A stretch of DNA of 64,000 nucleotides, taken from the NCBI GenBank assembly GCA_945861345.1, contig CAMATX010000002.1, positions 1 to 64,000 of the forward strand, read 5' to 3'. Below, piece by piece: positions 37,918 to 62,216 of the stretch. Each line of letters begins with the position of its first letter. The stretch's first letter is position 1. The notes under the pieces were generated by a model. The model saw nothing but the letters and a program-made list of their open reading frames with translations, did no database searches and was not told where the DNA came from. Origin of the DNA: Comamonas sp. lk (GTDB taxonomy: Bacteria > Pseudomonadota > Gammaproteobacteria > Burkholderiales > Burkholderiaceae_C). A program made the translations under genes and the position numbers.

Positions 37918-39344
37918 GCATGGACCTCGTCGTATTGTTGTATTTGGTCGCCAGCATCTTTTTTATTCAGGCGCTCAAGGGGCTGTCGCACCCGACCACC
38001 TCGATTCGCGGCAATCTGTTTGGCATGAGCGGCATGGCGATTGCCGTGGTAACCACCGCTGCGCTCATCGTCAATTTGGCGGGTCACGCCGACGGCTTGG
38101 GCTGGGTGCTGCTTGGTCTGGTCATCGGCGGCGGCGCTGGGGCCATCATGGCGCAGCGGGTCGAGATGACCAAAATGCCCGAACTGGTGGCCTTTATGCA
38201 CAGCATGATCGGCTTGGCGGCGGTGTTCATCGCTATCGCGGCGGTGGTTGAACCTGCGGCTTTCGCTATCGTGGCACAAGGTTTGGGCACGCTGGACATA
38301 CCTAAGGGCAACCGCTTGGAACTGTTCCTGGGTGCTGCCATCGGTGCTATTACCTTCAGCGGTTCGGTGATCGCATTCGGCAAACTCTCCGGCAAGTACA
38401 AATTCCGTTTGTTTCAAGGTGCGCCGGTGGTGTTTGCCGGACAGCACATGCTGAACCTGGCCATCGGCCTGGCAACGGTCGGTTTAGGCGTGTACTTCAT
38501 GTTCACTGGCAACTGGGATGCATTCCTTATCATGCTGGCGCTGTCTTTTGTGCTGGGCGTGCTCATCATCATCCCGATCGGCGGCGCCGACATGCCGGTG
38601 GTGGTGTCCATGCTCAACAGCTATTCGGGCTGGGCGGCAGCCGGTATCGGTTTTTCGCTGAACAACAGCATGCTGATCATTGCCGGTTCCTTGGTCGGTT
38701 CGTCTGGCGCCATCTTGTCCTACATCATGTGCAAGGCGATGAACCGGTCGTTCTTTAACGTGATTTTGGGCGGCTTCGGCGGTGAGGCTGGCGCTGCGGC
38801 GACCGGCAGCACCGAGCAGCGCCCGGTGAAAAGCGGCAGCGCCGATGACGCAGCATTCATTTTGGGCAATGCCGAAACCGTGGTGATCGTGCCCGGCTAC
38901 GGTTTGGCCGTCGCGCGTGCCCAACATGCGGTGAAAGAGTTGGCTGAAAAGCTGGCGCACAAAGGCATCACCGTGAAATACGCGATTCACCCGGTGGCCG
39001 GGCGCATGCCAGGCCACATGAACGTGTTGCTGGCCGAGGCCGAAGTGCCTTATGACCAGGTGTTCGAGATGGAGGACATCAACGGCGAATTCGGCCAAGT
39101 GGATGTGGCCATCATTTTGGGCGCCAATGACGTGGTCAACCCTGCTGCCATGATCAAGGGCAGTGCCATCTACGGCATGCCGATTTTGGAGGCCTACAAA
39201 GCCAAAACCATCATCGTCAACAAACGCTCCATGGCCGCGGGCTATGCAGGACTGGACAACGAACTCTTCTACATGGACAAAACCATGATGGTGTTTGGCG
39301 ACGCGAAGAAGGTGGTTGAGGATATGGTCAAGGCGATAGAGTGA
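37914..39344 (+). CDS. pntB: NAD(P) transhydrogenase subunit beta
   Basis: Multi-TM domain then [19 protein letters not shown]...[25 protein letters not shown]. Confidence 0.96.
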
Positions 39345-39366
39345 TCGATGCGCCCTCTGAGAAATT

Positions 39367-41682
39367 CTATTTTTCAGATTTCATGAAATAGAAATCGCCT
39401 ACTACTTGATCGTAAATCGCAGGGACTTGTTCGTGCCCAACGGAATTAGCCAGGCCAACGACCTGGTTGCGTACATTACGGACCACTTTATCGATCGTGA
39501 TCCCTGGGACGAGCATTTCCTTTAGAAAAACACGAGTAAATATCCCATTTTTGCCCTTGTCAGTGGGGCCGAGTCGATCAAGGGCTTGCTGGCCAGTACC
39601 TGCGGAAAAAATCACCATTTGCCCGGTCGCTGCTGTCGTTGGCGATAGCCCTCTTCCGCCAATAGCACGTCCAGCAACTTTGAAGGGGTTATCCCTACAC
39701 GCATCAATGATTGCCAAAGCGAATTTCACCTTACGTTCATTCATATCATCAAGCAATCGTTGCAAGGGAATTGCTTCATCTTTAACTTGAGACTCGCTCT
39801 CGCCGCCGATGTCAATTGGAAGCAAGTAATTGGCTGCGCCTAACTGCACGCCGTGCCCCGCATAAAAGATCATTACTTCGTCACCGCCCTCAACCTGTGA
39901 GGAAAAACTCCTTAGTGCCGTTTTCATTTCCTTTTCAGTGAGGTCTAATTTCAATGTAACTTTGTAGCCAACCTTTTGCATGTTTTCGGCAATTGCGCGC
40001 GCATCTTCACGTGCATTTTCTAATTTTGTGACATTTCGATAATTGTCATTTCCAATGATTAAGGCCTTCCGATTCGCATACACCACCTCTGCTCGTACCG
40101 CCAAATCATTAACCCTTTGTTGCGCACTCGACTGGGCCTCAGCCAATTGAAGTTTTCGTTGCAGTTCGTTTTCCCTCTGCGCAGCGGCTAGCGCCTCCTG
40201 CTTCAATTTTTCCTCGGCTTGAGCCTGCATCTTCTTAGCCACTTGGGCCTCCGCAACCAGTTGTGCTTCGCGTGCATTTTGCGACTCTAGCTGCGCTTGG
40301 ATGCGTGTTTTCTCCTCGGTGAGTGCTATTTGCCGTTGTTCGTCTGCGATTTTTTGTTTCTTGGTTTCTTCCAACTTAGCAAGCTGCTGTTTTTGCATCT
40401 CCGTCTCTGCTCTTTGTCGCTCTAAGGCCTCGGCAGTCTGACGTGCCAATTGCGCCCTTGACTGCTCATGCTCTTGTAAAAGTTTTTGGCGTTGAAGGCT
40501 TGATGCCCCGTCTTTCTTTGCTAACTCCTGGGTAGCAAAGAAAGCTTTTTCCTCAGCATCAGTTTTATTGCCCAATTTTTCTTCGGGTTCTGCCTCAAGG
40601 GTCTTTCGTTCCTCTGAAGTTGCTACGGCCAATGCATCTTTGGAAAATGTTTGAAGATTTAGCTCAAGGTCAGCAAAAGCAATTTGCCACTGGTCTCGGT
40701 TTAAAGAGAAGGTGCTGTCCGAGGCATATTTACTAGGATCAAGAATAAGTAGTTTTTTGTTTACCAACGAATCCGTTCCGAAATTAGGCCCAAAAGCATT
40801 TTGATATTTTCCTTGTCCAGAGAAAAGGCCTGCAGAGAACGACCCTACGTAAGTGATAGGCGTACCCGAGTATCGATAAGTTCCAACAACTTTTCCCTTT
40901 CCAATCGGAAAGCCATTCTGCCAATTGGCGACGTAGACTAAGTCATCTGCTTTGCTTTTATAGACGGCACGGCCATTTGGGATACCTCGATTAAATTCCC
41001 CGACAAACGTATCTCCCATGAATGACCCATCTTGACTATGCGCATAAACACCAAAGCATGGAGCTTTAAAGTTTGCTTCAGTACATAAGGGCAAAGTACT
41101 GCCGAATTTATTCTTTAACTCCGACAAGAATAAAGGTGCATTGGCATCAATTTCGACGGAGCTGATTGCTGGCTCCAAGCTTGCTGTTAAATAAGAGTGT
41201 TGAGACAGGCTGACGATAGCAACCTCAATTGGAAAGCTCCAAATGCGTCCAGCTGACAAAGTGCAAGCAGTCCTGATTGTGCCTACAAATTTATCCGATT
41301 TATAACTTCCTTCGGCTTTGGTTAATGGATCTACAGGAACGCAGTCAGTGCCTGCGTTTGTTACTGCCAAAAGTGCAGTACCTAATCCCGCAGGAACTCC
41401 ATTAATCCAGCTAGTGGAATACGTTTCTCCGGGTCTACATTTTCCCCCAGCCCAGCAAATAGTTGCTCTGGTATACGTGCCGACACCATGCGGTTTTCCG
41501 TCTTTAAATTCTCCGACGTATTTGTCACCTTTAAACGCATCATTTCCGGTATGGACATACGTACCTTGACAATTCGTCCAATCCCCACCAATTGGACATT
41601 GAGGTAGTTTGGACTCTGCCGTTACGCTAATGCCAAGCAATGAGAGCGCGACAGCAAGTATGACTTTTGATATTCGGTTCAT
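39367..41682 (-). CDS. Exported MORN-repeat / coiled-coil / caspase-like (peptidase C14) protein
   Basis: Signal peptide; MORN repeats YVGEFKDGKPHGVGTYT and FVGEFNRGIPNGRAVYK; long E/K/Q coiled coil; RKALIIGNDNYRN...MIFYAGHGVQ (His)...LAIIDACRDNPF (Cys). Confidence 0.88.
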   Translation of the reverse strand: MNRISKVILAVALSLLGISVTAESKLPQCPIGGDWTNCQGTYVHTGNDAFKGDKYVGEFKDGKPHGVGTYTRATICWAGGKCRPGETYSTSWINGVPAGLGTALLAVTNAGTDCVPVDPLTKAEGSYKSDKFVGTIRTACTLSAGRIWSFPIEVAIVSLSQHSYLTASLEPAISSVEIDANAPLFLSELKNKFGSTLPLCTEANFKAPCFGVYAHSQDGSFMGDTFVGEFNRGIPNGRAVYKSKADDLVYVANWQNGFPIGKGKVVGTYRYSGTPITYVGSFSAGLFSGQGKYQNAFGPNFGTDSLVNKKLLILDPSKYASDSTFSLNRDQWQIAFADLELNLQTFSKDALAVATSEERKTLEAEPEEKLGNKTDAEEKAFFATQELAKKDGASSLQRQKLLQEHEQSRAQLARQTAEALERQRAETEMQKQQLAKLEETKKQKIADEQRQIALTEEKTRIQAQLESQNAREAQLVAEAQVAKKMQAQAEEKLKQEALAAAQRENELQRKLQLAEAQSSAQQRVNDLAVRAEVVYANRKALIIGNDNYRNVTKLENAREDARAIAENMQKVGYKVTLKLDLTEKEMKTALRSFSSQVEGGDEVMIFYAGHGVQLGAANYLLPIDIGGESESQVKDEAIPLQRLLDDMNERKVKFALAIIDACRDNPFKVAGRAIGGRGLSPTTAATGQMVIFSAGTGQQALDRLGPTDKGKNGIFTRVFLKEMLVPGITIDKVVRNVRNQVVGLANSVGHEQVPAIYDQVVGDFYFMKSEK

Positions 41683-41942
41683 GTTAAGGTTGGACTGATG
41701 GCCAGAGAGGGATTAAATTTATATTGCAGACTACTTATTACCTTATAAGATAGTACAAACTATTGTTGCCGTTCCGTAGGCGTCCGTAGCTGCATAGTAG
41801 TACATGATTATTTATTACGCAATTGCCTCACTATCACCGCATCAGATGCATTTTTTGCCTCAATATGCCTCGTCACCTTCTATTTGAAGCAAATTGAATA
41901 GAAGATCATAGGGGCGCCCGGGATTGATGGCTCAAACGTTAA

Positions 41943-42692
41943 ATGAATATCTCCGTTATGAAAATTTTTTTGCTTCTACTGGCCAGCCTGTTGGCTAGTG
42001 GAGCCAACGCCGACGATCTGCGCAAGATTGCAGTACTGGCCTTGATGGGCGACACACTCACCCTTGTTAACCATCGACCTGAAACCGGTAGCAACATCGA
42101 TAGAAACCTGTATTCCTCAGTACCCACCAGCGCGTCCGCCATAGACAACATGCTCGCGACAGAGGTGATTGAGGCGACTCAACGGGTGGGCCTGCCTGGC
42201 AATCTAGAGATTCAAGCAGTGAAATACCCGGGGCGATATGAAACCGCACGATGGTTCAACGGCGCAAAATTTACGCCACCGGCTGAACTAGCTTTAGCGA
42301 TGACCCAATTGGAAGCCACGCATCTCCTATTCATCGCCCCCTATCGTGCGCCTTCGATGCTCAAAACTGCAAACTCAAGCGTCGGGAGTGGCCATCTTGA
42401 AGGCCTCGGCTTTTACATAGACCGTGAGCTAAGGATCAAACGCGCTGATACCGGCGAATTAGGCCAGGGGGTTTTAGCGCCGTTTGCTTACTTTAAGGTT
42501 TGGCTAATCGACCTTGCCCGCGGCGAGCGTGTGCACGAACAAGCCATCACCGCCAGTAGCACTGCGTCCGTTGCGCGTAACAAGAATGGCCTCGATCCTT
42601 GGGACACACTCGACGCCGCTCAAAAGGTACTAGCCCTGCGCAGGCTCATCCGTAGCGAGCTAGATATGGCCTTACCCAAACTCCTACCCTAG
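41943..42692 (+). CDS. Hypothetical exported protein
   Basis: Signal peptide MKIFLLLLASLLASGANA; divergent from the caspase gene; family not recognised. Confidence 0.6.
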   Translation: MNISVMKIFLLLLASLLASGANADDLRKIAVLALMGDTLTLVNHRPETGSNIDRNLYSSVPTSASAIDNMLATEVIEATQRVGLPGNLEIQAVKYPGRYETARWFNGAKFTPPAELALAMTQLEATHLLFIAPYRAPSMLKTANSSVGSGHLEGLGFYIDRELRIKRADTGELGQGVLAPFAYFKVWLIDLARGERVHEQAITASSTASVARNKNGLDPWDTLDAAQKVLALRRLIRSELDMALPKLLP

Positions 42693-42786
42693 CAGGAATT
42701 TTCAAATTCTCAGGCCACCAGGATTTACTCCACAAAAATACGAGTGCTCGCTGGATTGCATTAGTCCAAAAGTGGTGGGATAGGCG

Positions 42787-43776
42787 CTACTTCAGCCACC
42801 CGCGCTTGCGGAAGTACCACATGGGCACCAGCGCGCTGCAGATCATCAGCGCCACGGTGTAGGGGTAGCTCCAGGGGCCCAAAAACTCCAGTTCGGGGAA
42901 TTTCAGGTTCATGCCGTAGACGCTGGCGATCAGCGTGGGCGGCAGCAAGGCGACGCTGGCCACCGAGAAGATCTTGATGATCTTGTTTTGGTTGATATTG
43001 ATGAAACCGACGGTGGCGTCCATCAAGAAGTTGATCTTGTCAAACAAAAACGCGGTGTGGCTGTCCAGCGAGTCGATGTCGCGCAGAATCTGGCGCGCGT
43101 CTTCAAACTGCTCGGCGTTGAGCATTTTGGAGCGCATCATGAAGCTCACGGCGCGCCGGGTGTCCATCACGTTGCGGCGGATGCGTCCGCTCATGTCCTC
43201 GTGGCGGGCGATGGCAGCGAGGGCCTCGCCGGCGATCTCATCGGTCACATTGCCAGCGAGCACTTTACGGCTGACGTTTTCCAGGTCGTCGTAAATACCT
43301 TCGAGCGTGTCGGCGGAGTATTCGGCATCGGCATCGAACAACTTGAGCAAGACCTCTTTAGCGTCTTCGATCAGTCCGGGCGCGCGGCGCGCACGCATGC
43401 GCAGCAGCCTAAAAACAGGCACGTCTTCGTCGTGAATCGAAAAGAGAACGCCTTTGCTTTTGAGGCTGTCGTTCACCAAATTCAGGATAAACGCGGCGCG
43501 CACCGTGCGCGGCTCGTCTTCGTCGGCGATTAAAAAGTCGCTGCGAATATGCAGCTCGCCGTTGTCCTCGGTGTAGAAACGGGCCGATTCCTCGATGTCC
43601 TCGTCCATCGCGTCTTCGGGGATGGACAGGCCGTAATACTGCTTGATCCAGCGCTTTTCTTCGACGGTGGGCGACTCCAAATCCACCCAAATGGGCTGGA
43701 ATTTGGAGAGCTCTTCCAGGGATTCGATCTCTTCCTGGAATAGGCGGCCGTTGGCCAGGGTAAAAATATTGAGCAT
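42787..43776 (-). CDS. corA: CorA-family magnesium/cobalt transporter
   Basis: C-terminal two TMs with SVYGMNLKFPE (GMN motif). Confidence 0.93.
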   Translation of the reverse strand: MLNIFTLANGRLFQEEIESLEELSKFQPIWVDLESPTVEEKRWIKQYYGLSIPEDAMDEDIEESARFYTEDNGELHIRSDFLIADEDEPRTVRAAFILNLVNDSLKSKGVLFSIHDEDVPVFRLLRMRARRAPGLIEDAKEVLLKLFDADAEYSADTLEGIYDDLENVSRKVLAGNVTDEIAGEALAAIARHEDMSGRIRRNVMDTRRAVSFMMRSKMLNAEQFEDARQILRDIDSLDSHTAFLFDKINFLMDATVGFININQNKIIKIFSVASVALLPPTLIASVYGMNLKFPELEFLGPWSYPYTVALMICSALVPMWYFRKRGWLK

Positions 43777-53253: not shown

Positions 53254-54246
53254 ATGTTGCAAATACTGGCTGTTACGTTTCCATTTTTCGCGCTGGTGGG
53301 TTTGGGTTATGTGGCCGCCGTGCGTGGCATGCTGCCTTTGTCGGCGATTGGCGGCATGAACACCTTTGTGTTGTTTTTTGCGCTGCCCTGCATGCTTTAC
53401 CGTTTTGGCGCGAGCACGCCGATCGCCCAGCTGTTTGACCCGGGCGCTGCGCTGAGCTATTTGCTGTGCGCGCTGCTGATGGTCACGCTAGTGATAGCCC
53501 TCACACGACGCGGACCTATCGGCTGGAATGACGCGGCCTTTGGCGCGCTGGTCGGGGCTTTTCCCAACACCGGCTTTATGGGCGTTCCGCTGCTGGTGGC
53601 GCTTTTGGGCCAGGCCGCAGCGGGGCCAGCCATCGTCACGATTTTGGTGGACATGGTGATCACCACCTCGCTGTGCATTGCGCTGTCGCGCTTGGGCGGC
53701 GGCCACGGCGAGGGCGACAGCAGCGCGCCCCAAGGCGCAGGCCAAGCGGCCCGCAGCGCTTTGCGCGGCGTGGCGACCAACCCCATGCCCTGGGCCATCT
53801 TGAGCGGCGCAGTGGTCTCGGCCTTTGCCATCGTGCTGCCTGCACCCTTGGCCAAAACCGTGGCCTTGCTGGCCGATAGCGCCTCGCCGGTGGCTTTGTT
53901 CACCATTGGCGCGGTGCTGGCCCGCTCGCGCATGCAAGCGGCCTGCGGCCATGCACCGGCGGTGCCGCTGGGCCAGGTGCTGCCGGTGGTGGCCATCAAG
54001 TTGGTGGTGCATCCGCTGGTGGTGCTGGGCGTGGGCCGCGCTGCGCAAAACCTGGGCGTGGCGCTCGATGACTTTGCGCTCATGGTCATGGTGCTGGTGG
54101 CAGCTCTGCCCAGTGCGAGCAATGTCTCTATGCTGGCTGAACGCTTTGGCGCCAACAACGGGCGCATTGCCCGCATCATTTTGTTTTCAACGATGGCGGC
54201 CTTCTTGAGCTTCTCGGGCGCCGTGGCCTGGATGACGGGGCGTTAA
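53254..54246 (+). CDS. AEC family transporter (auxin efflux carrier-like permease)
   Basis: ~10 TM; MLQILAVTFPFFALVGLGYVAAVRGMLPLSAIGGMNTFVLFFALP; GNTGFMGVP-like GAFPNTGFMGVPLL. Confidence 0.9.
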   Translation: MLQILAVTFPFFALVGLGYVAAVRGMLPLSAIGGMNTFVLFFALPCMLYRFGASTPIAQLFDPGAALSYLLCALLMVTLVIALTRRGPIGWNDAAFGALVGAFPNTGFMGVPLLVALLGQAAAGPAIVTILVDMVITTSLCIALSRLGGGHGEGDSSAPQGAGQAARSALRGVATNPMPWAILSGAVVSAFAIVLPAPLAKTVALLADSASPVALFTIGAVLARSRMQAACGHAPAVPLGQVLPVVAIKLVVHPLVVLGVGRAAQNLGVALDDFALMVMVLVAALPSASNVSMLAERFGANNGRIARIILFSTMAAFLSFSGAVAWMTGR

Positions 54247-56414
54247 ATCGTCAGCGGGTCCACATCGATGGCCCAGCGGATCAGCCCTTTGCACCCCGGC
54301 GCGCTGCGGGCCGCTTGCAAAACAGTGTGCCAGCCGCCCAAAAACTGCTGCAAGGCGCTGCGCGAATCACTCTCGACCAGCATTTGGGCGCGCTCCACAT
54401 TGGCCACTCGCTGCATAGACATGGGCACAGCCGGGTAGAGCGTGACCTGCGCGAGCACCGCTTGCCAACCGGGCCACTGCCCCATATCGGACAGCGCTTG
54501 CACACGCGCGGTGTTCAAGAAAGCCTGCGCCGCCTCTTGGGTGCGCGCATCGGCGCGCACCAGGGCCTGGAAACTAAAAGGCGGCATGCCTGCCTGCGCC
54601 CGCTCTTGGAGCTGGCTGTCGGCAAACGCAGGGTAGTCGTATTGCTTTAAGGCGGCATAAACCGGGTGCGCCGGCTGAAAAGTTTGCACCCACACCTCGC
54701 TGTGGGCGCCTAAAGCGGCATCGCGCCCGGCGCGCCCGGCCGCTTGCAAAAGCAGTGAGAACAAACGCTCTGGCGCGCGGAAATCGCTGGAGAACAAAGC
54801 GCTGTCCGGGTTGATCGCCGCCACCAGCGTGATGCGGCGAAAGTCGTGGCCCTTGGCAATCATTTGCGTGCCCACCAGCACGTCGACCTCGCCGGCGTGC
54901 ACCGCTGCCAACTGGCTTTGCAGCGTGCCTTTGCGGCGTGTGGTGTCAGCGTCGATGCGCGCGATACGCACCGGCTCGCCCTCGGGCTGCGCCTCGCTCT
55001 GGGTGCCGGGGCGGCGCACCTCGGCCAGGAGCGTGGCCAACAGCTCTTCGACTTGCTCGGTACCCCGACCCAGCGGCACGATGTCCGGGTTGCCGCAGTC
55101 CGGGCAGGTGCGGGGCACGCGGTTGCTCAGGCCGCAGTGGTGGCAGCGCAGCGTGCGGTCGCTTTTATGAAACACCCGAAACGCGCTGCAGTGACTGCAC
55201 GCGCTTTTCCAGCCGCAATCGGTGCAATGCAGTACCGGCGCATAACCGCGCCGGTTGATAAACACCAGGCTTTGTTCGCCGCGCGCCACGCGTTCTTTGA
55301 GTGCCTCGACCAGCGGCAGCGAAAACACGGCGTTACGCGGCTGGTGCGTCATGTCCACGCGGCGCACCAGGGGCAGGCTGCGCCCGGCCGCGCCGATGCG
55401 GCTGGGCATGTGCAAGCGCGCATAGCGCCCGCCCTGGTCTACAGGGCGGCTGTGGTACCAGCTCTCCAAAGACGGGGTGGCCGAACCCAGCAGCACTTTG
55501 GCGCCTTCCAGGCGGCCGCGGTAGATCGCCAAGTCGCGCGCCGAGTAGCGCGCGCCCTCGCCGCTTTTGTAACTGGGGTCGTGCTCCTCGTCGACCACGA
55601 TCAGCGCCAGGCCGGGCATGGAGGCAAACACCGCCATGCGTGTGCCCAGCACGATGCGTGCACCGCCCTGGTGCGCCGCCAGCCAGGCCGAGAGGCGCTG
55701 CGCCGGCGTCATGCCGCTGTGCAAGCTGACAACGGCCTGCGGGCCCCACTGCGGAACAAACCGCGCCTCAAAACGCGCTTGCAGCTGCGGTGTGAGGTTG
55801 ATCTCGGGCACCATGACCAGCACCTGGGCGCGGGGGTCGCGCAAGAGCAAATCTTGCACAGCGCGCAAATACACCTCGGTCTTGCCGCTGCCGGTGGCGC
55901 CAAACAGCAAAAACGGCCCGGGCTGGGATTGGATCTCGGCCAATACCTGCGCCTGCTCGGGGCTGAGCATGTCGCCGGCGGCACCGTCGGCCTGCGCCGA
56001 GGCGCTTGGCGCAGCGCTGGCGATTCTGAGTTGGGCTTTTTCTAAACGCTGCGCGCGGCGCTGCAATTGCAGGGGCGAGACATCGCGCAGCTGCGGGGGC
56101 AAGGCCGCCAGTGCCACCTCGCCTGCCGAGCGCTGGTAGTACTGCGCGCTAAAGCGGATGAGTTGCTGCCAAGGTGCGGACAATGGCTGAACCGTGTCGA
56201 GCACGGCGGCGATATCGCGCACTTTGTCGGGTTCGATTTCGCCGGTGGCGTCGGGCGCTTGGGCGTCCCACACCAGCCCCAAGGTTTCGCGCGCGCCCAG
56301 CGGCACCCGCACCAAGGTGCCCGGCGCCAAGGCCAGCGTATGCCGGTAAGTCAGCACCGGGCCCAACTGCGCATGGGCGGGCGTGTGCACCAGCACGGGC
56401 AGCCACACACTCAT
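54243..56414 (-). CDS. priA: Primosomal protein N' (PriA helicase)
   Basis: FGATGSGKTEVYLRAV, Zn-binding CTDCGWKSACSHCSAF..CHHCGLSNRVPRTCPDCGN. Confidence 0.96.
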   Translation of the reverse strand: MSVWLPVLVHTPAHAQLGPVLTYRHTLALAPGTLVRVPLGARETLGLVWDAQAPDATGEIEPDKVRDIAAVLDTVQPLSAPWQQLIRFSAQYYQRSAGEVALAALPPQLRDVSPLQLQRRAQRLEKAQLRIASAAPSASAQADGAAGDMLSPEQAQVLAEIQSQPGPFLLFGATGSGKTEVYLRAVQDLLLRDPRAQVLVMVPEINLTPQLQARFEARFVPQWGPQAVVSLHSGMTPAQRLSAWLAAHQGGARIVLGTRMAVFASMPGLALIVVDEEHDPSYKSGEGARYSARDLAIYRGRLEGAKVLLGSATPSLESWYHSRPVDQGGRYARLHMPSRIGAAGRSLPLVRRVDMTHQPRNAVFSLPLVEALKERVARGEQSLVFINRRGYAPVLHCTDCGWKSACSHCSAFRVFHKSDRTLRCHHCGLSNRVPRTCPDCGNPDIVPLGRGTEQVEELLATLLAEVRRPGTQSEAQPEGEPVRIARIDADTTRRKGTLQSQLAAVHAGEVDVLVGTQMIAKGHDFRRITLVAAINPDSALFSSDFRAPERLFSLLLQAAGRAGRDAALGAHSEVWVQTFQPAHPVYAALKQYDYPAFADSQLQERAQAGMPPFSFQALVRADARTQEAAQAFLNTARVQALSDMGQWPGWQAVLAQVTLYPAVPMSMQRVANVERAQMLVESDSRSALQQFLGGWHTVLQAARSAPGCKGLIRWAIDVDPLTI

Positions 56415-56492
56415 GGCTGCGCCTGCGCTGCGCGCATCTGACCGGATCGTTCTTGGGGGCGGGTTTGCATCAGTTACGGCAAAAAAATACGC

Positions 56493-57066
56493 TAAGTCCT
56501 TGATCCAATTGGCGGGCTGGGATTACCCCCAATTTATGTGGATAACTTTGTTGATAGGCGTGGAATGTGGCCCGCCCACCCTCGAAAAACCAGCGGAAAG
56601 GTACCTTGCATAAAATTTAGGCAATTTTATAAATTCCATACGAATCAATGACTTATGCTGCATAAAGGATACCGCCGGAGGCCACAAGGGCATTACCAGG
56701 GGCGCCACGATACCTAGCGCCAATTGTGCATAACTAACTTTGCCTTGCAAACGTGCAAGCCATGGGCAGCGGCCCAAAGCTGTGCCTGCAAGCCGCCCCA
56801 TTGTGCACCGCCTCCATCTGGACGGACATACAGCCTTTGGGCGCTGCGCACCGTAGTTTTCCAATTAGCCGTGGCATTTGATGCCCGGTTGCGAAAGCAG
56901 GCCTAAGTGATTGATCCGTATGGCAGCGACAGCTTATGGCCTTTTTCTGTGGATAACTTTGTTGATATCCCTGCGCAGAGAGGTCAAAACCCTTGACAAA
57001 TCAAGGCTTTCGAAACATTGCCTCTAAAAAAAGCATATTCGTATTTCCATACAAATCAATGATTTA
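56493..57066. repeat. Diverged 411-bp-period duplicated module with DnaA-box-like sequences
   Basis: ctaagt..ttgatcc (56492/56903), TGTGGATAACTTTGTTGATA (56537/56948, identical 20-mers) and ttccatacRaatcaatga (56634/57045) recur at the same 411-bp offset. Confidence 0.7.
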
Positions 57067-57211
57067 GCAGATTATCCAAGCCAACATGCCGTCTGCAGGG
57101 CGAGGCACTTGGCGGCTTGTATGGACAGGAATTTTTGTGCACAAGTGCGCTCTGGGGCATAAAAACCGGCAAATAAATGCTAGGCAAACTGCCCGGCCCC
57201 GGACCTTGGCG

Positions 57212-58237
57212 TTATTTTGCTTTGGCGCGCGGATGCGCCGCATCGTACGCGCGGGACAAATGCTGGAAATCGAGCCGCGTGTAGACCTGGGTCGTGCTGA
57301 TGTTGGCGTGCCCGAGCAGCTCTTGCACACCGCGCAAATCGCTGCTGGACTGCAGCACATGGCTGGCAAACGAATGGCGCAGCATGTGCGGGTGCACCGG
57401 CGTGCTGGTGTTGGCCAGCAAGCTGCGCCTTTGCAGGCGCTGCCAGACCGACTGCGCCGTGAGCCGCGTGCCATTGCGCCCGGTAAACAGCGCAGGCGAG
57501 TCGGCCCCCCCCGCGCCGCGCCCGGGCGGGCTGCCGCGCAGCGCCAACCAGCGATGCAAAGCAGCCAGCGCCGCGCTACCGACAGGCACGCTGCGCCGCT
57601 TGCTGCCTTTGCCCAGCACATGGGCCTGCGCGTCTTGCAGGTCGACCCAGCCTTTGGCCAGCGCACTGGCCTGCACGTCCAGCCCCACCAGCTCGCCCAC
57701 GCGCAGACCGCTGCCGTATAAAAGCTCGACGATGGCGACATCGCGCGCCTCCAACCAGGCGCCGTCTTCGCTGCGGAAGTCGGCAAACTGCACCGCGTCG
57801 TCCACGCCCAGCGCTTTGGGCAGGGGCTTGGCCGCTTTGGGGGCGCGCACGTCTTGTACCGGGTTACTGGCGACCAGGCCTTGGCGGCCTAGCCAGGCAT
57901 AAAAACCGCGCCAGCCGCTCAGGATGAGCGCAATGCCCCGCGCGCTGCGCCCACCGCTGTGCATGGCGGCGATCCAGCGGCGAATGTGGTGGTGCCCCAC
58001 CTCGCACAGAGGCAAGGCCGCTTGCGCCGTGCGACCGGTGCCTTGCGCGTAGCTTTGCAGCTTGGCCAAATCCAGGGCGTACAAATCAACGGTGCGCGCG
58101 GCCAGGCGCTTTTCGACCCGCACGTACTCCAGGTAGCGTGTGACCAGGTCGGCGTCGCTTGCCACGGGGCGCGGGGTGCTGGCGCGCTTTAACGCAAACG
58201 GCTCAGCGCGGCGCTGGCCACCTCGCCGATGCGGCAC
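57212..58237 (-). CDS. xerC: Tyrosine recombinase XerC
   Basis: HPHMLRHSFASHVLQSSSDLRGVQELLGHANISTTQVYTRLDFQHL; start may be further downstream, as the ORF overlaps DUF484. Confidence 0.92.
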   Translation of the reverse strand: MPHRRGGQRRAEPFALKRASTPRPVASDADLVTRYLEYVRVEKRLAARTVDLYALDLAKLQSYAQGTGRTAQAALPLCEVGHHHIRRWIAAMHSGGRSARGIALILSGWRGFYAWLGRQGLVASNPVQDVRAPKAAKPLPKALGVDDAVQFADFRSEDGAWLEARDVAIVELLYGSGLRVGELVGLDVQASALAKGWVDLQDAQAHVLGKGSKRRSVPVGSAALAALHRWLALRGSPPGRGAGGADSPALFTGRNGTRLTAQSVWQRLQRRSLLANTSTPVHPHMLRHSFASHVLQSSSDLRGVQELLGHANISTTQVYTRLDFQHLSRAYDAAHPRAKAK

Positions 58238-61937: not shown

Positions 61938-62216
61938 TCAGCTATCGCCACGTTTGAGGTCGCGGTAAAAGTTTTCGTGTGGCCCGACCATCAGCAGCTT
62001 GAGGGTGTTTTCGTCCAAGACGCGGTATGCCAAGAGGCACACCAAGTTGCCCATTCGGAATTTGTATACCTGGACGCCAGCCAAGTCGCCAACTTTGGTT
62101 TCTCCCGCCTCGGGTTGGCTAGCCACGGTGCGCACCGCATCGTCAAGCGCCGCCTTCTGGGGCGCGTGCAGCTTTTTGACTGCCCGCTGAAACGTCGGGG
62201 TGACAAGTAGGCGCAT
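61938..62216 (-). CDS. RelE/ParE-type toxin of a type II TA system
   Basis: MRLLVTPTFQRAVKKLHAPQKAALDDAVRTVASQPEAGETKVGDLAGVQVYKFRMGNLVCLLAYRV; abuts a ParD-like antitoxin. Confidence 0.8.
   Translation of the reverse strand: MRLLVTPTFQRAVKKLHAPQKAALDDAVRTVASQPEAGETKVGDLAGVQVYKFRMGNLVCLLAYRVLDENTLKLLMVGPHENFYRDLKRGDS

Follow-up and report, generated by a model that had tools for sequence, protein, structure and literature searches.

The non-coding gap between priA and xerC probably comprises two tandem DARS2-like sites, that is, cis-acting DNA that would recharge the initiator DnaA. The window analysed was a 64,000-nucleotide stretch of the draft genome, and the gap houses two modules in which we observed the anatomy, a layout matching that of E. 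coli DARS2, conservation and, in relatives, the map position. The layout was scored with a rule comprising DnaA box I, a 5 bp gap, box II, a 3 bp gap and box III, with box I opposed to the others, and an IHF site of 8/9 or better at 103-107 bp. Both window modules and E. coli DARS2 matched this rule in full, whereas DARS1 matched in its core only. There were no matches in 760 kb of background from two complete relatives (G048 and G007), no full matches in 837 kb of reversed sequence, and no match in the E. coli datA, oriC/mioC, dnaA, polA, nrdA, and purH regions. A profile, R1, built solely from the sequences of beta-proteobacterial modules and containing no E. coli sequence, found E. coli DARS2 (L263:2941-3085) with 18.6 bits and an E value of 5.5e-6 in 18 kb. 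The features of the locus are as follows.

54243-56414, minus strand: priA, primosomal helicase PriA (Pfam and NCBIfam), the usual neighbour of the element
56415-57211, no strand: non-coding gap (ORFs, Pfam/NCBIfam) housing both modules
56476-56744, plus strand: module 1, putative DARS2-like element; R1 125.4 bits over positions 10-277, with module 1 itself in the R1 training set; full match to the layout rule
56493-56505, minus strand: IHF-type site upstream in module 1, GATCAAGGACTTA, matching WATCARNNNNTTR at 8/9 and preceding box II by 44 bp
56523-56531, plus strand: DnaA box I of module 1, TTACCCCCA, agreeing with TTWTNCACA at 6/8 and opposing box II across 5 bp
56537-56545, minus strand: module 1 DnaA box II TTATCCACA, perfect
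56549-56557, minus strand: module 1 DnaA box III, read on the plus strand as TGTTGATAG
56643-56655, plus strand: module 1 IHF consensus site AATCAATGACTTA, 9/9, 106 bp after the start of box II
56725-56733, minus strand: additional DnaA box of module 1, TTATGCACA, 188 bp beyond box II
56879-57185, plus strand: module 2, putative DARS2-like element; R1 148.5 bits over positions 2-309, with module 2 itself in the R1 training set; full match to the layout rule
56904-56916, minus strand: module 2 upstream IHF-type site GATCAATCACTTA, 8/9
56934-56942, plus strand: module 2 DnaA box I TTATGGCCT, weak (5/8, as is box I of E. coli DARS2)
56948-56956, minus strand: module 2 DnaA box II TTATCCACA, perfect
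56960-56968, minus strand: module 2 DnaA box III, read on the plus strand as TGTTGATAT
56999-57011, plus strand: half of a palindrome inside module 2, AATCAAGGCTTTC, IHF-like (8/9)
57054-57066, plus strand: module 2 IHF consensus site AATCAATGATTTA, 9/9, 106 bp after the start of box II
57136-57144, minus strand: module 2 extra DnaA box TTGTGCACA, 7/8, 188 bp after box II
57212-58237, minus strand: xerC, tyrosine recombinase, adjoining the element in the close clade only

The limits of the gap were exact, with priA on one side and xerC on the other, and gene and domain searches (ORFs, Pfam/NCBIfam) agreed with the sequence-only reading that it is non-coding. That reading had also reported three blocks repeated at a 411-bp offset, and all of its coordinates and letters were correct: the identical 20-mer TGTGGATAACTTTGTTGATA at 56537 and 56948, the flanking blocks at 56492/56903 and 56634/57045, and, besides these, the near-box TGTGCATAA at 56725. 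It had overlooked that the fourth block is paired as well, with TGTGCACAA at 57136 (56725+411), and that the flanking blocks are mutual inverted repeats matching the IHF consensus WATCAANNNNTTR. A repeat search recovered two families, one of 65 bp with 72% identity and one of 22 bp with 91%, each spaced exactly 411 bp, the distance between modules 1 and 2. The 20-mer consists of two tandem DnaA boxes separated by 3 bp; boxes II and III of module 1 lie in the same orientation and form a double DnaA box. With up to three mismatches, it occurs only at these two sites in the 2.63-Mb draft genome, and both exact occurrences of TTATCCACA in the window lie inside the gap. In module 2 the partner of the palindrome half, CCTTG, lies just upstream, and the palindrome has been lost from module 1. 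A search of the gap for a sigma-70-like promoter found none, which is weak evidence. The 113-aa ORF at 56523-56864 was rejected as a gene, having no Pfam match.

Elsewhere in the window, the GC content at 39000-43000 was 45-49%, compared with about 60% around it, and this segment is possibly acquired DNA. The minus strand at 61938-62216 encodes a ParE-like protein (PF15781, E 1.1e-31), the toxin half of a type II toxin-antitoxin pair. In G007, whose genome has 60% GC, a strongly skewed 20-kb segment (C1:1-20000) has 31.6% GC.

The sequence-only reading would have been weakened by blocks that were not conserved in relatives; the opposite was found, and the blocks are kept across genus and family. 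With up to two mismatches, the 20-mer was present in 55 of 61 same-genus genomes, and almost all of the loci read in the genus lay just upstream of priA. Spacing was near-invariant in the genus, with the IHF-type site at -44, the double DnaA box at 0, IHF at +105/+106, and the DnaA box at +187/+188, while the sequence between these conserved sites diverged. The IHF-type site at -44 had a mean score of 8.3-8.6/9 in 35 genus and 30 family modules, and box I fell under the chosen threshold at 16 of 30 genus loci. R1 matched all sampled family genomes (251/251, in 126/126 genera). Among 24 complete or near-complete genomes, its best match adjoined priA in the majority and lay away from priA in G068 and G195; G015 carried an additional copy downstream of priA. 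In both G195 (L142) and G068 (L136), a second, partial copy was seen a few hundred bp from the full element, and the element of G195 was near a dnaE-like gene. Recent duplication of the modules was rejected: copies within a genome were 0.41-0.48 identical in five genomes, no closer than copies of different genomes, which makes the doubling old.

Beyond the family, R1 matched 201 of 276 class genomes and 98 of 199 genomes of a phylum sample at E <= 1e-4, with a rough model calibration. The full rule was passed by 24 of the 28 class loci read, about half of which adjoined priA, the remainder being near ksgA-, rapA-, purA-, or herA-type genes. The IHF distance of these loci was partly selected by R1. 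The distant matches had a near-perfect box I, and this was not selected by the model, because box I is weak in the R1 training set. In the phylum sample, many sampled genomes of one family outside the class (f176, genomes of 1.6-3.1 Mb) matched R1, several of them with 3-7 matches each.

For 19 genomes a second locus was retrieved as well, giving 20 loci; xseA adjoined the match in 18 of them, and 17 passed the full layout rule. This copy is usually upstream of xseA and mostly lies towards the terminus, and with respect to the neighbouring gene it is oriented the other way round from the priA type. Measured from dnaA, the median distance was 0.21 of the arm at priA-type sites and 0.91 at second loci, with the xseA neighbour checked in all but G180 and G074. 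In the genome of the window itself (C37, L265:1-240), the short gap upstream of xseA contained neither TGTGGATAA nor a double DnaA box; xseA is truncated there by the contig end, and the draft assembly limits this negative result. The xseA copy of this genome, otherwise common in the family, has probably been lost. We tentatively propose a broader scheme, which as a whole is possible rather than likely: DARS2-type DnaA recharging may be an ancient trait of Pseudomonadota that is most often sited at priA; Burkholderiaceae may use two sites, one at priA nearer the origin and one at xseA towards the terminus, with fork passage setting the dose of active DnaA; and lineages without a recognisable xseA copy, that of the window among them, may carry a doubled priA copy.

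The proximity to priA also allows for a DnaA- and IHF-controlled priA promoter region that times transcription with replication and does not recharge DnaA. The majority of family copies, as well as many from other gamma-proteobacteria, sit immediately upstream of priA, and the DnaA regulon of E. coli is compact and consists of replication genes (PMC11317965). However, genus members differed in the distance to the priA start (about 22 to 157 bp) while their internal spacing was fixed, the oppositely oriented xseA copies, the downstream copy in G015, and the copies off priA (L136, L142) do not fit a promoter of this gene, and the failure to find a sigma-70-like promoter in the gap points, weakly, in the same direction. 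We therefore regard this explanation as unlikely.

A datA-like site, acting after initiation as an IHF-dependent sink or ATP-hydrolysis site that lowers ATP-DnaA, seems less probable still. It shares with the modules several DnaA boxes around IHF sites and a comparable relative distance from the origin (elements' median 0.21 of the arm, datA 0.20), and this datA-like map position, together with the weak box I of module 2 (5/8), counts against a DARS2-like reading. In contrast, E. coli datA gave R1 a double-box match only (11.3 bits), has no opposed box I at 5 bp, and fails the DARS-type layout rule that the window modules pass, whereas DARS2 matches it fully and DARS1 has its core. The suggestion of a DnaA-titration site thus lost ground, since the opposed pair of boxes I and II and the IHF spacing are those of DARS2 and not of datA.

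The leading idea of the sequence-only reading, that the gap is the chromosomal replication origin oriC, is now very improbable, while its more general term, a replication-control element, stands and has become specific in the DARS2-like layout. DnaA boxes, IHF-type sites, some AT-rich stretches, and replication-gene neighbours would suit an origin, but the GC skew that was proposed as a check switches sign near dnaA and not at the element in both complete relatives. In G048 the sign changed between 3.16 and 3.42 Mb, near dnaA (3.15 Mb), the element being located at 2.41 Mb; sampled skew was negative at 0.88-3.16 Mb apart from one slightly positive sample, and mostly positive beyond 3.42 Mb with one outlier at 4.2 Mb. 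In G007 the sign changed at about 0.62-0.65 Mb, again near dnaA (0.65 Mb), whereas the element is located at 0.13 Mb; samples between 0.63 and 2.5 Mb were mostly positive, and those from 2.8 Mb across the zero point up to 0.6 Mb were negative. The element and dnaA are 746 kb apart in G048 and 527 kb in G007, distances that also bound the range in five relatives (527-746 kb), and across 22 complete or near-complete genomes dnaA and the priA-type element were separated by 200-835 kb. All of this evidence on origin and map position comes from relatives, the genome of the window being a 129-contig draft. As the sequence-only reading had said, dnaA and dnaN are absent from the window; they are located with gyrB on contig C3, where two perfect boxes precede dnaA. 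A conserved non-coding RNA is just as improbable: about 300 bp are conserved and include a short palindrome, but the consensus fold reached only -1.56 kcal/mol with zero compensatory pairs, single-sequence z-scores were -1.85 and -1.22, and no Rfam family passed its gathering score over the gap, the sole hint being a sub-threshold snoRNA match (E 0.28) ascribed to chance.

If the modules are DARS2-like sites, as we favour, ADP-DnaA would bind boxes I, II, and III, and the facing boxes I and II would place two DnaA molecules head to head. IHF, bound about 106 bp away, would bend the DNA so that the downstream segment, which carries the extra DnaA box at +188, meets the DnaA complex; the strained complex would loosen its ADP, and the empty DnaA thus freed could take up ATP and start the next round at oriC. 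Binding of DnaA and IHF and release of ADP at the modules are predicted here from the arrangement of sites, and two copies would double the dose at that position of the arm. The genome contains hda, and ATP-DnaA is therefore expected to be inactivated and to need regeneration. In E. coli, ADP release at DARS2 depends on a bend made by IHF at a set distance from the core, and a moved IHF site weakens it (PMC4245941); the fixed IHF distance of 105-106 bp appears to fit this way of working. The DARS core consists of three DnaA boxes of which I and II are opposed (PMC8682772), and in E. coli the preferred targets of DnaA are double boxes with a gap of 2 or 3 bp (PMC11317965).

To our knowledge, E. 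coli is essentially the only species in which DnaA recharging has been worked out. A site of DARS architecture in every sampled genome of the family, located beside priA and xseA, would allow a direct test of whether the E. coli DnaA cycle is general, and the layout rule provides a sequence means of telling DARS sites from other DnaA sites. The DARS-like kind of site is already known, because reviews report such sequences in other proteobacteria: similar DARS sequences are conserved in many proteobacterial species (PMC10380432), and the spacing of the DARS2 core, IBS, and FBS is kept in beta- or gamma-proteobacteria close to E. coli (PMC5742627), while another source calls the DARS2 core specific to E. 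coli-related gamma-proteobacteria (PMC4245941). Our literature search, most subscription papers lying outside it, found no description of the priA or xseA sites, the tandem copies, or the family, nor, within the same scope, of the added inverted IHF-type site and distal box.

For comparison with the known sites, the box letters of DARS1 and DARS2 were read from MG1655 beside uvrB and mutH, respectively, and not from published box positions. DARS1 reads TTATCCACT-5-TGTGGATAA-3-TGTGTATTA, and DARS2 reads TTATCCCAG-5-TGTGGATAA-3-GGTGTAAGA with AATCAGAGAATTG (9/9 IHF) at 105. In the same notation, module 1 is TTACCCCCA-5-TGTGGATAA-3-TGTTGATAG with AATCAATGACTTA at 106, and module 2 is TTATGGCCT-5-TGTGGATAA-3-TGTTGATAT with AATCAATGATTTA at 106. 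Both modules thus have the DARS core of three DnaA boxes with box I opposed to box II (box I 6/8 and 5/8, respectively), as well as a predicted IHF site, 9/9, at a fixed 106 bp. DARS1 has the same three-box core with the same gaps but lacks a matching IHF site (best 7/9 at 107), whereas the window modules score 9/9. A second three-box core was noticed in the MG1655 rppH-ygdT interval (L263:2632-2774): TTATTCACC-5-TGTGGATAG-3-TGTGAAGAA with an IHF-like site at +95, scoring 15.3 bits with R1 and lying about 316 bp upstream of the known DARS2 core. The published DARS2 is reportedly 455 bp long.

The likeness to DARS2 extends from the order, gaps, and orientation of the boxes (box I opposed to II and III) to the IHF consensus site, which follows the start of box II by 105 bp in E. 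coli and 106 bp in the window, the E. coli offset being the one seen in the genus and family sets. The letters TATAAATCA at the IHF site are common to DARS2 and the consensus of the relatives. Both are non-coding and lie on one replication arm, and the DARS2-type placement away from oriC was found at 0.07-0.37 of the arm in 22 relatives (about 0.27-0.29 in G048 and G007), although the elements' median is nearer to datA than to DARS2 (0.41). E. coli DARS2 activation needs the Fis sites FBS2-3; a simple Fis pattern, itself weak, had no conserved position in the elements and just one match in E. coli DARS2. The core and the IHF spacing are the features that have been kept, and the mutH neighbour, and perhaps Fis, those that have not. 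DARS2 lies upstream of mutH, whereas the beta-proteobacterial copies lie upstream of priA or xseA; the priA type has two sites not seen in DARS2, an added IHF-type site in inverted orientation at -44 and a further DnaA box at +187/188, and the window carries two copies in tandem.
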